Of a DNA stretch of 64,000 nucleotides, positions 37,739 to 43,499 are shown piece by piece. A program made the position numbers and the translations under genes. Location: NCBI GenBank assembly GCA_033675265.1, contig JAUJYZ010000290.1, positions 124,001 through 188,000 on the forward strand, written 5' to 3'. Origin of the DNA: Actinostola sp. cb2023 (Eukaryota; Cnidaria; Anthozoa; Actiniaria; Actinostolidae). The first letter of the stretch is position 1. Every line of letters begins with the position of its first letter. The notes below the pieces were generated by a model. The model did not search any database and had not been told where the DNA came from. It saw only the letters and a list, made by a program, of their open reading frames with translations.

Positions 37739-37948
37739 GAAATCGAGAATTCTTATTAATTATATTTGTTTTTATAATGAAACTAAGGATATGAGCATAC
37801 AACGTTTCGGTGACATACTTGCACCATCTTGAGGTAGTAATAAAATAATTTGAACAAGAATAAGTACGATGTTAACAATGGTCATTGTTCTTAAAGGAGA
37901 ACTCCACTATTTTACGATCTTTTTATATATGATAGGTATTATGATACT

Positions 37949-38399
37949 AATCATATTCATTTTGAAATCACTAGTAAATCCTGCAATCTGATTGGCTAAA
38001 AATGGTGCGATTAAATCATTAATTGCACTATTTTGGATCATTAATTGCACCCATTTTTTTTTTTTTTAATTTTCGCACAGAAACTCTAATTTTATTAAAT
38101 TCAAACGATTCTTCATAAAAAGTAATTTGTAATTTAGAATGAAAGAGTTGTATTTTAGGCATCAAAATTATTCTTATTATTGCAACTTACCACCTAAATA
38201 TAACGGGTGTATTTGAAAAGATTTCAAAATGAATATGATTAATAGGTAATAGAACTGAGTGGAGTGCAATTTTGGTCTGAAATCATACTCGTGATAACAA
38301 ATTGCACTCCCGCTACGCAAACGCGGGTCGTGCAATTTTGTAATCACTCGTATGATTTCAGACCAAATTGCACTCCACTCAAACAGTTCTATTACCATT
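37949..38399. mobile_element. nested double-hairpin insertion in the transposon's left end
   Basis: Comparison with the intact right terminus shows 451 extra bases flanked by ACT (37946-37948, 38400-38402). The insert consists of one inverted-repeat unit (AATCATATTCATTTTGAAAT at 37949 and its complement ending 38240) followed by a tight hairpin (38245-38396, GGTAATAGAACTG arms). It post-dates the Kolobok-like insertion. Confidence 0.8.
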
Positions 38400-38666
38400 A
38401 CTTAACTTGTTTGCAAAGTTTCAATGTCCTATCTTGCAATAAAGTGGAGAAAAAATTATTGGAAGTAACGATAAATCGCTGACATGGAGGCCACCATCTT
38501 GAACACTCTTCTGAATCTGCAAGCAGTCAGCGGTTATCTCTCGTGACGTCACTGCGCGCCAGTGAACGACAGATCGACAGGAGATCGAAGGAATAATTAG
38601 CTCTACAGACTTTGTTTACAGTAGTTTCTAGTATAAAAGAAAGCTAAATTTTGAATGTGATCGAAG

Positions 38667-39369
38667 ATGAGTTCTACTGATAGTTCTTCTAGTACTACTG
38701 ATATTTCTGATGTTGATTTTGATGATTTTTTGGCCGAAAGAGAGGACAGTCTTCATTTACAAGGCTATCAGTTTCAACCTACACGTGCCATCAATGAAGA
38801 CGATTCAGATCTCTCAGATTCTAATTCATCAGAGAGTGCAGCGAATGCTGGCACTCGATTAGAGAACTCAGATTGGTAAGTACATATACGATTAATTACG
38901 CCGGGACATGTAATTTTGTACTCAGTAAGAGCTAATTATTTTCAGGTGTACATGCGAACATTGTCAAATAATGGACAGAGAAGTGGAATGTGTTTGCTGT
39001 CAGGACATTCCCCAGATAGTGGACAAAAATCGTAATGTCTCTGAAGAAGAACATCTTAATGATCCTATCACATGTATCACTAATAATCCTGGTTTTAAGG
39101 CCGTGTGTCTCAATCGCTGGGTGTTAGAGGCTGCATGGTATCAATATCGACAGCAATATGGCAGCGATGTTAATTACGAAGCTCCTGCGCACAAGAAGAA
39201 TCGCCACACTGCTTATAGACAGTTGGTTCGATGGTGTTGGGGAGTCTTGGGCAAGGAGATCAGGGTTGTCTTACCATCATGTGCTGTGATGTGTATTCGT
39301 GCACATTTCCCACCTCCTGGCCTAGAGGAAGACTTTGAATTTGTTGGTTTCCATTATGCAGATGAGTAG
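38667..39369 (+). CDS. P2X7 C-terminal 'ballast'-like Cys-rich protein encoded in a transposon
   Basis: Exons 38667-38875 and 38946-39369 join across GTAAGT and TTTTCAG to give 210 residues with no stop; the Trp70 codon is split. Residues 1-66 are acidic and Ser-rich. Residues 70-210 follow the cytoplasmic ballast domain of vertebrate P2X7 receptors: WCTCEHC (70-76), VECVCC (83-88), CITNNPGF (113-120), a WVL...YRQQYG helix, RHTAYRQLVRW (156-166), LPSCAVMCIRAHFP (179-192) and a GF near the end. The Cys set (71, 73, 76, 85, 87, 88, 113, 182, 186) fits a zinc-binding cluster. There is no membrane segment or P2X channel part. The gene lies wholly between the ends of the Kolobok-like element, converging on its transposase gene, and unlike that gene is intact. 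I infer an accessory protein, perhaps DNA- or nucleotide-binding; function is unknown. Confidence 0.8.
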
Positions 39370-39589
39370 TACATGTATGTACATTGTACATGTATGTCAA
39401 CACCTGTTGAACAGTTAGACAAATCCTTTAAACAAGTGCATGAGTACATGATTGTCTAATCTATTGTCAGTGACAAATATATTTGAACTGTGAAATATTT
39501 AGTTAGACAAATATTAATATTTATTTGTAAATTTATTTAACTCATGGGTAAAATAAATACAATCATTATAATTTAGGAAACAGTGGAAT

Positions 39590-39995
39590 TAGGGACGTCT
39601 TCTAATGTCTATAACTATTTTCTAATAAATAGGCCGGCATCGATCAAGGGGATAGGAGACGTAAGAAGGATAACATACTCTCAGACAAGAAATACGCGAC
39701 AACAACTGTGTAACAGCACTAAATATGGGCACCAGAAGGTAACAGAAAGAGAGGAAGACCAAAAACAATATGGCATCAAACAGTCAATGAATTTGTAAAT
39801 ATTGTAACTTTAGCTCAGCTCAGTTTAATATAGCTTATATTAGATTAATCCTGTAAATTAATTCTGAAAAGGTGTGCAAGATGAATTAATAAATGAATTG
39901 TAGTTGTATTTTAGTTGAGAACTTAGACAGAGCAAGAGCTGGATGGAAGACATATGGGATGAATTAGTACAGGCTGCAGCAAAGGACAGGTGACA
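39590..39995 (+). pseudogene. LINE (non-LTR) reverse transcriptase tail relic
   Basis: The plus strand at 39721-39800 encodes WAPEGNRKRGRPKTIWHQTV, the G-R-P-x-x-T-W-x-x-x-V motif near the C terminus of many cnidarian non-LTR polymerases. Near 39935 follows SWMEDIWDELVQAAAKDR. Stops separate the two. It sits between the two convergent genes of the Kolobok-like element and is probably a later insertion. Confidence 0.5.
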
Positions 39996-40209
39996 ATTAT
40001 TATATTACCCTAATATATATATATTCCTAATTCATTCCTATTTGATATTTTGCTCTGTTATTTTATATGATAAACCATCTTGCAATGTGGTTTATTGATT
40101 TCCAAAAATGATATGACTGTAACATAACAAGTGATACATGTATATATTTTGTTACATTGTAGTAATTGGGCTAGTATTCAGCACTAATATTGGACACTTT
40201 ACTTACATA

Positions 40210-42796
40210 TTATCGCTCCTCTTTCTTTTTTTTCACCATTCGAGAAATGTGCTGCTTTATCACTTCCTCCTTAGGTGGTCGTTGAAGAGTGGCAAAATTT
40301 TTTGGAATATGTGCTGGTGTTCTTAGTTTTGGTGCTTTTGTCCCAGCCTCATGACATTCAATTACTTCATCCATCAGCTCTGTGACAAAGGTATATGACT
40401 TGTCCTCCAATATTGGCTTTGCCACCCAGGTTTTACGGTTTTTTTGGAAAAACCACTTTGTACCGTTTTTCACCCTTTTTGGTTGTTGCTTGGGATCTGT
40501 TTGCATTGTTATTATGATCTAATATGGCCAGCTGTGTTCTGCTTATCATTCCATGATAAGAGAAGTGCTTTCTCTTTGGTGCATACTTCAAAAGAAGTGA
40601 ATGGAAAAAAACTTCAAGATTACCAGTATGATGAAATTCTGTTAGTTTTTTAAAGTCCTTTAATAATTTCTTATTGCAGACTATTTCTTCTAGTGCCACA
40701 TGGGCAGAGGAACCAGGCTTCAGCCACATGATTTGTTTACGCTCTCTCTTTGTAAGTCTGGCATGTTTGCATGATACACTGGCTTCTCCTTCCTTCCAAG
40801 AGTGTTGGTCTGCTACATGATTGACAATGGAAACCCAGTTTCTTACAAGGATCTCTGGATCTTCATTACAGGTTTGTACAGTCCACCATAGATGATTAGA
40901 TATAGATTTAATCCAAGGACGAAGCTCATCATTGCACTTTGTTTTTGCCTTTTGTGTTAATTTTTTGGTCACTGATTTTGCTAGGTGCCAAACATCATAT
41001 TGATGTTTGATGTTGGGGTATCTTTTCTGTAACTGGGCTGTGATTTGAACGTGCCGATCTGTCGTCAAACATCTAATTGGAAGTTGGTGATTTAAAAGAT
41101 TGTCTAATGATCGTTTGCATCCTTCGTACTCCATTGCATATGATGAAGACACCTCAGAAACATGCACAAGTGAAAAGTCCACAATCTTCCCAGATTCCTC
41201 ATGCATTAAACTATATGTGCCATATTTGGCATTATGGCCTGGGCTGTCAGATCTGCCATCCCCACATAAGTTAATAGGTCCATTATTCTTCAGGTCAGAA
41301 ATTAAACTTAGCTGTTGTTCTTTGTACTCTTTTTTGATAATGGGAAATATATAACATTATTTTGAACATTATAAAAACATGATCTGCTGATGAAATTTAA
41401 TTTCAAAGCCTCAGCAAAACTTGAAAATTCTTGAAAGGATCCCCCTGTAAACACTATAGCAGCAGGTATCATTAGATTTCCAGCTGGGACATTATTTTCT
41501 GTGATAGGCTGGGAGTTCCAAGTGTACTGATGATTTTGTAGACACAATGTGCGTATGGTAAGCATGCTGCCAGTGTTGATCTTTGAGATTTCACATACAG
41601 GAGACCCACATTGTTGACAGAATTTAAATAGCTCATCAAGTTGGCATTGATATACTATGAACTTTGAGTCATTTGTACAGTTAATATCAGTTTCAGGGTC
41701 TGAATCGTCACTGCTTTCTTCTGAATTTGAACATCTGTATTCATCATCAGAATCATCCACTAGTACATGATTGCTTATCACAGGTGCTTAGTGTGTCAGT
41801 TAGAACAGTCTCTATGTCGACAGTTTGAGACATAGTGACAGAACAGGCAGGCAGAGGGACAGGCAGAGGGGTAGGCCTAGGAGCAGTACATGTATAACTG
41901 TGATCAATGAGATGGGATATAGGATTACTTGTTTCTCCACAAGATGTTTGTAATATTGTATTTGTATCGTGTTTTCTTCCACTGCGAGGTTTTAGTGTCT
42001 GAGTCCCAATATGTCTATGTGTTGTTTTCTGTGCAGTTATCTGTGTAGTTATCTGTGTAGGACATTCTGTGTAAGACATTGATGTCTGTGTAGGACATTG
42101 TTCAACTGATTCTAATCCCATACAAGCATCCATATCCATATGGTCTTCAGTACACATCGACTCTGGCTGGACTGGCTGCAGTAATTGCACAATTTCCTAA
42201 ACAAATGTATTGTATATTGAAATAAATGGAACTGATGTTCAATTTGTTAAATTAAAATTAAATGTCAAAACTATTTTTTCTTCTGTTTTGCATTTTAATT
42301 TTCTGTCATTATATCTTTACATTAATAAATATACAAGTTTGTTGTATAATATTTGTCTTGTAATAATCATAACTTGTATATATGTGTGAAATAAAGACAA
42401 ATTATATGTTTATCTTTTTTAAATTCATTAAATTCATCAAAGTTACATCTGGAATAAAAACGTACCTCGTTTCGATCTTGGTTACGTCTTCTTTGTATGG
42501 AGTTAAAACGTTCACATTTGTTACCAGTGTGAGGAAATATTGTTGGGATTGAACCAGGTTTTAGAGTTTTTGTTTTGCTGCCCACACAGGTGCTTTAGGG
42601 AAGTCTGAAAACAATCTGGCATAAAGTGTACGCTACAAACGTAAGAAGAGTCTCGTTTGGCAGGATTCTTTCGGCGAGTTTTCGTCAGCCAAAGTTTACT
42701 TATTTTTTCATCTTTTGGCAAACGATGGAACGAAATATCTGTTCCTTTTGTCTTTCTGGAGCCGTTTGTACATCCAGGTACCATGCAGTGAGGCAT
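40210..42796 (-). pseudogene. THAP-domain Kolobok-like transposase, frameshifted
   Basis: Exon 1 (42796-42466) starts MPHCMVPGC. It carries a THAP zinc finger: Cys4, Cys9, Cys54, His57, with FHRLP and, after a frameshift at the TGTGTG near 42588, LKPGSIPTIFP. A GTACG donor (42465) and TTTAG acceptor (42197) join it in phase to exon 2 (from 42196). Exon 2 has a Thr/Cys-rich linker, an acidic DDSDDEYRCSNSEES patch, CxxC pairs, then the core: NLCGDGRSDSPGHNAKYGTY, LTTDRHVQITAQLQKRYPNI, YDVWHLAKSV and the C-terminal RYKVVFPKK...TWVAKP, ending at 40210. I can place further one-base shifts near 41775, 41340 and 40450 (the last in a run of seven A), so the copy is inactive unless these are sequence errors. 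GDGR and TDRH are the likely catalytic acidic residues of the DDE fold. The N-terminal finger would bind the TIRs. Confidence 0.78.
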
Positions 42797-43136
42797 AATT
42801 TACAAAAGTTAAGCAGCAAATTCACCGATAAACTAACTTACAATGAAAAAGAATGAATGAAACATGTAAACAAAGTTCACTTTTATTCGGATTTCGCGCC
42901 ATCTCGGAACCAGCGCGCAGTGACGTCACGAGAGATAACCGCTGACTGCTTGCAGATTCAGAAGAGTGTTCAAGATGGCGGCCTCCATGTCAGCGATTTA
43001 TCGTTACTTCCAAGGATTATTTCTCCACTTTATTGCAAGGTAGGACAATGAAACTTTGCAAACAAGTTAAGTGTCATAATACCTATCACATATACAAAGA
43101 TCGTAAAATAGTGGAGTTCTCCTTTAAGTAAACAGT

Positions 43137-43495
43137 TTAGCCCCAATTGAGTCCGATTGGACATTGAGGACTGGTTTGCGTTCTTTGATTAGCAGCATTT
43201 CAAAAATTAGACAATCAAGTTTGGTCTTGCATTTTTTCAATACTGTAAAGCTTTCAGTCCTCACGGATTCGGATGATTGGTCATGCAGAGTTATGTGCTT
43301 CGCAATTGAACTGGACTGACTCTTATGCTCTTCTATACGCTGATAGAGGTGGCGCGGCGCGTATAACCAACATAACTCGCATCACACGAGTCACATTTAT
43401 ATTCGTAAATAACACTCTGTTGGTTGATTATATCGGACTTAACCTGACGTATCTTCAGGTCTTCGAAGATATATATGGTTTGCACTCTAGCCTTT
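43137..43495 (-). pseudogene. Penelope-like GIY-YIG endonuclease relic
   Basis: The minus strand reads YKCDSCDASYVGYTRR (the GIY-YIG-type start) and, after a one-base shift, HLYQRIEEHKSQSSSIAKHI. It then reads FTVLKKCKTKLDCLIFEMLL and RKPVLNVQSDSI. The C-x-x-C before YVGYT, the R-x-x-E-H helix and the E-x-x-x-I-x-x-x-x-P-x-L-N end are typical of the endonuclease that closes Penelope-like and related retroelement proteins. It begins 10 bases outside the Kolobok-like element, which may have inserted into it. Confidence 0.65.
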
Positions 43496-43499
43496 AACT

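Follow-up and report, generated by a model that had tools for sequence, protein, structure and literature searches.

The DNA analysed here, which we call the window, is a stretch of 64,000 nucleotides from the cnidarian Actinostola sp. cb2023 (contig JAUJYZ010000290.1, positions 124,001 to 188,000 of the forward strand). A complete DNA transposon spans its positions 37895-43123, with TTAA directly outside either end (37891-37894 and 43124-43127). The right terminal inverted repeat is 211 bp long (42913-43123, minus strand) and ends in ...GGAGTTCTCCT. Its left counterpart consists of two pieces parted by a nested repeat: an outer part (~37895-37948, plus strand) which starts with AGGAGAACTCC (AGGRR), and an inner part of 160 nt (38400-38559, plus strand) which is 96% complementary to 42913-43072. 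Between these ends lie a gene of the KolX type on the plus strand and, convergent to it, a transposase gene on the minus strand. That the element is a Kolobok and that it encodes a KolX-type ballast protein, so called for its likeness to the ballast domain of P2X7 receptors, seems to us almost certain. We further consider it probable, with more reserve, that the whole is a two-gene Kolobok transposon belonging to the KolX-bearing type, Kol0, and that KolX serves the transposition complex as an accessory protein; the Kol0 assignment was made via the KolX protein and the features of the element.

The KolX-type gene is predicted to consist of two coding exons. Exon 1 (38667-38875, plus strand) encodes an acidic, serine-rich N terminus with no match in Pfam, and is followed by a predicted 70-bp GT-AG intron (38876-38945, plus strand) and by exon 2 (38946-39369, plus strand), which holds the ballast (zinc-cysteine) domain and the stop codon. 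The predicted splice yields a protein of 210 residues uninterrupted by a stop, and its exon 2 part is 100% identical to that of a sister copy elsewhere in the genome (C388). A sequence-only reading of this DNA had described a separate, intact, spliced gene whose product follows the P2X7 ballast, and the searches bear out this likeness. The protein matches the Pfam family P2RX7_C with an E value of 8.1e-18 and a score of 65.5 bits (cut-off 23.5), its only Pfam domain above cut-off, and the P2X channel domain (PF00864) was not found in it. It also matches P2X7 chains both by sequence and by predicted fold; the fold comparison (VIA-align) covered 41 chains, such that the absence of other folds from its result means little. 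All seven cysteines of the ballast domain are found in the alignment and in the predicted fold.

The transposase gene is less well preserved. Its N-terminal part encodes a THAP DNA-binding domain (42521-42799; Pfam E value 8.8e-16), its middle (41308-42196) is open in two frames (42196-41753 and 41787-41308), a DDE-type region is open for 307 residues (40433-41356) and has relatives genome-wide, and the C-terminal end (40210-40518) lies in another frame, all on the minus strand. The DVWH (DxxH) motif and the catalytic triad of the DDE-type region were assigned by eye, without a reference alignment, and the match of this region to the Pfam family MULE (E value 7.4e-4) falls under its cut-off. 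The THAP/DDE transposase proposed earlier is recovered in its THAP domain, with a putative DVWH motif, but the proposal had passed over the breaks in the window copy, whose frame shifts several times and from which two sister copies differ by several frame-changing lengths. The breaks may reflect either decay or assembly error, which are indistinguishable here. With a broken transposase frame of its own, the window copy is probably mobile in trans only.

Direct evidence for insertion with duplication of TTAA comes from empty paralogous sites. The element sits in a dispersed host repeat, and the two flanks, when joined, match copies of this repeat that are uninterrupted elsewhere in the genome (52 times among the matches listed). 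Four of the five empty-site loci that were aligned, all paralogous, have a single TTAA across the junction, in L050 with gaps directly to its left; the fifth has a 15-bp gap at the junction. TTAA also stands on both sides of all seven elements for which both ends were found, the window's included, among them four further elements taken in full, each with both inverted ends. The termini follow the pattern 5'-RR...YY-3', being AG...CT in the window copy and in C388, C636, C1506, C136, C400 and C14; another sister copy, C1331, has TTAA and a left end, and its right end was not found within the 7.5 kb examined. Homologues of the window's THAP pieces occur in three of the four other elements checked. 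Together with the 211-bp inverted repeat, these observations confirm the matching ends, the TTAA duplications and the Kolobok-like character that had been read from the sequence. Features of the KolobokP type were also sought: no long terminal direct repeats (~450 or 660 bp) span the ends, where the terminal repeats are inverted, and no His-Me nuclease was found among the five proteins searched against Pfam.

A protein search of the host genome returned at least 154 KolX matches, and the 30 best copies (the window's included) were examined with 1.5 kb on either side. An exact TTAA and one of four terminal sequences start 25 of them, and copies of one family are 91-100% alike beside their ends. 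The flanks of these 25 are unrelated apart from L025 and L026, which have one flank in common, found also at L024; all three are alike past the element end and so do not represent three independent insertion sites. Whether each copy is flanked by the same ends and TTAA had been put forward as a check: where the copies begin, most show such a flank, with four end types rather than one, but five of the 30 do not: L017 and L024 have a terminal sequence and an altered TTAA, and L029, L035 and L036 have none of the four terminal sequences. All of these five except L029 have a transposase fragment within 1.5 kb. Across the 30, such a fragment lies no more than 1.5 kb downstream on the opposite strand in 26. 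None was found within that distance of L023, L029, L037 or L038, three of which have an end, and none occurs in 19 control stretches (17 from the window outside the element and two loci of miniature inverted-repeat transposable elements, or MITEs).

The same arrangement emerges when more copies are considered by coordinates only. Of 104 KolX places, 36 have a listed transposase no more than 6 kb away (that list being itself a lower bound), as against 0.34 expected by chance, and 35 of the 36 pairs are convergent. The 104 places were drawn from the 154 listed matches, omitting three that cover exon 1 only and all those from C732:368953 down; the transposase side comprised 137 matches minus the last seven weak ones.

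These results bear on whether the ballast-like copies might be ordinary host genes which lie near transposon ends by coincidence. Ballast genes are found across Metazoa, with a linkage to two markers reported in invertebrates (Rump et al. 2020, PMC7016195), and L029, with neither a matching end nor a transposase fragment within 1.5 kb, is the kind of copy that such a view would predict. It is countered by the 25 copies which begin at an exact TTAA and a family end in flanks that are unrelated apart from the L025/L026 case, by the similarity of family members beside their ends, and by the empty sites of the window copy. No copies outside elements beside conserved host genes were seen among the 30 best, around which host genes are not annotated. 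We consider it extremely improbable that these copies are ordinary host genes and reject that view on the transposon ends, the empty sites and the linkage to transposase.

L029 itself (C708:282290-282709) is an open-frame KolX copy and a candidate for a solo or domesticated one. The motif TTAAAGG, here no more than a putative end, occurs ~1.2 kb upstream of this copy and once more in L036. Elsewhere, L024 and L026 form a pair of facing KolX copies ~3 kb apart (C1556:164154-167887), both with a short protein insertion. The ends of one family, D, start with AGTAC instead of AGGRR.

The ballast gene had originally been seen as transposon cargo, and it is here that our conclusions depart most from the sequence-only reading. 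If a host ballast-domain gene had recently been picked up by one element as a passenger without a role, its product might well resemble the tail of a host receptor, as it does, and an intact KolX beside a broken transposase, as in the window copy, would be unsurprising. However, KolX keeps its place and orientation across elements whose terminal sequences are of four kinds, and among the 120 relatives listed, the named ones are cnidarian proteins with the ballast domain alone, rather than P2X channels. Selection points the same way. The ratio of nonsynonymous to synonymous substitution (dN/dS) was estimated with 17 of the 30 copies as representatives, giving 136 pairs, of which 13 fall within 0.05<dS<1.5 and the remainder are saturated, above 1.5 or too close. 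Between sister families the ratio for KolX is 0.064-0.093 (dN 0.09-0.13), and for the transposase of the A pair it is 0.091-0.096 at similar dS; with dS at 1.3-1.5, near saturation, these values are rough. Low values like those of the transposase speak against KolX as cargo, and we find that reading very improbable: the ballast gene is a second gene of the element, one that several families in this genome hold in the same layout.

Among near-identical KolX copies (dS <0.05), dN/dS is 0.39-1.09 in nine of the ten pairs listed, with very few changes, and 0 in the tenth (one synonymous and no nonsynonymous change). On the whole, the sequence comparisons fit what would be expected of a gene that is needed while the element spreads and is relaxed after insertion, and indicate that KolX matters for the spread of the lineage. 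We favour a part for KolX in the transposition complex. The THAP domain would bind the inverted ends, the DDE domain would cut and join at TTAA, and KolX might act as a zinc-stabilised helical scaffold whose acidic, serine-rich N terminus contacts the host or the transposase. Such a role would be comparable, by analogy, to that in the two-gene PIF/Harbinger transposons, where a Myb-like second protein serves the element.

Two pairs depart from the selection pattern just described: one KolX pair of family F (L033-L038) has a dN/dS of 0.106 at a dS of only 0.058, and one transposase pair within A reaches 0.36. To pass from a selected protein to a machine part is an inferential step, as a role in anti-silencing or import would leave the same trace. 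It is possible, if rather unlikely in our estimation, that KolX is a selected element gene which counters host control, for instance silencing or nuclear import, and takes no part in cut-and-paste. Purifying selection between families would be expected in that case too, and other Kolobok lineages have quite different accessory proteins (Kojima & Bao 2022, PMC9587614), which implies that the superfamily requires no single helper; nothing in the present data, however, prefers such a role to a part in the machine. Should KolX turn out to assist transposition as a cofactor, a transposition assay would offer a way into ballast biochemistry (zinc, guanine nucleotide).

In Drosophila, the P element has a THAP transposase that requires GTP, and by analogy KolX could make Kolobok transposition dependent on guanine nucleotides, although we regard this idea as improbable. 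The P2X7 ballast has been described as binding GDP via R546, H547, R574, R578 and K583 (Rump et al. 2020, PMC7016195). In an alignment of 14 KolX proteins and P2X7 tails, the positions equivalent to R546, H547 and R578 do not vary; across 36 KolX proteins the first two remain invariant and the third is kept in at least 90%. R574 and K583 are not kept in the window protein, and another copy from the same genome, L013, has lost the R546 equivalent. If a separate KolX protein did supply what in P elements belongs to an inserted domain, the nucleotide site of the P2X7 ballast would be a relic of a transposon control switch. Invariance of the H547 equivalent in KolX, where the named proteins are cnidarian, runs contrary to the account of Rump et al. 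(PMC7016195), in which just R546 and R578 are reported beyond deuterostomes.

That the ballast domain came from, or was spread by, mobile DNA had been suggested from the sequence, and its linkage to elements favours this, but the phylogeny gives no direction. In a tree of 35 proteins (228 of 331 columns, no outgroup, three members with long end branches), 12 P2X7 tails lie on one side of a branch with full support (100/100), and a very long branch leads to the 23 KolX proteins. Lacking an outgroup, the tree separates the two groups but neither proves nor refutes descent of P2X7 tails from KolX. Descent from a KolX-kind protein is a published proposal with which our data are consistent, short of proof: Kojima & Bao (2022, PMC9587614) found that the KolX of the Kol0 lineage resembles P2X7 residues 476-595 and shares seven cysteines with it, traced P2X7 to the fusion of KolX to a P2X4-like gene, and took Nanor for a probably domesticated KolX. 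The pairing of Kolobok and KolX, which the sequence-only reading could not say had been described, has been in print since 2022; in the open literature searched for the term KolX, this paper alone uses it. What the present work offers is an independent check of the proposal in one genome, and added evidence that KolX is selected as an element gene rather than carried as cargo.

Among the listed relatives, the nearest named proteins come from Exaiptasia and from soft and stony corals, as would fit a sea-anemone- or coral-like host. In public databases, several cnidarian entries (Montipora, Acropora, Xenia, Oculina, Exaiptasia) bear the name 'P2X purinoceptor 7' or '7-like' with P2RX7_C as the sole domain listed; they look KolX-like, a caveat for work on purinergic signalling in corals that relies on such annotation. 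In a related vein, the P2X7 C terminus was trimmed from queries in one study owing to its resemblance to unrelated genes (PMC10620158). Rump et al. (2020, PMC7016195), in whose main text the word stem 'transpos' is missing, describe a tick open reading frame that joins a THAP domain (spelt TAHP there) to a ballast region and that may be the merged gene model of such an element.

The repeat that splits the left inverted repeat is MITE-like, ~460 bp long (37945-38404, plus strand, limits approximate) and foreign to the element. It has at least 39 matches in the genome at 94-97% identity and is not at the corresponding position in the sister copies C1331 and C388. Beyond the right end, at 43127-43497 on the minus strand, a dispersed repeat contains a broken GIY-YIG-like domain (PF01541, E value 8.9e-4, below cut-off), and we take this repeat to be possibly a Penelope-like element.

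Set beside known systems, the element resembles PIF/Harbinger in encoding a second protein beside its transposase, an analogy only, since the second protein there is Myb-like and here has the ballast fold. With the C-terminal ballast of P2X7 (P2RX7_C, PF20478; PDB 6u9v, 9e3m) the KolX-type protein shares the fold, the seven cysteine positions and the R546/H547/R578 equivalents, but it is transposon-encoded, has no detected P2X channel domain and has its CC pair and CIT motif further apart. Nanor and the nanor-like or ZCD proteins are, by their description, likewise short and ballast-only; unlike the element gene reported here, they are regarded as host genes by Rump et al. (PMC7016195). T2-MITE and the Xenopus Kolobok elements have in common with the window element the TTAA target, the AGGRR terminal motif and a THAP and DDE transposase, and the Kolobok definition applied here (AGGRR/TTAA and THAP-DDE-H2CH) is taken from the paper on them (PMC6004289), which lists transposases and whose main text lacks the term KolX. 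The nearest counterpart is the published Kol0 with KolX (Kolobok-1_XT type; PMC9587614), which matches in its TTAA duplications, its 5'-RR/YY-3' ends, its DDE-type transposase, whose DxxH has a putative counterpart in the DVWH read by eye here, and a second protein that has the ballast domain of P2X7 with its seven conserved cysteines; compared with that account, the element described here belongs to a new family, its genes are shown to converge, and its left end contains a nested MITE-like repeat.

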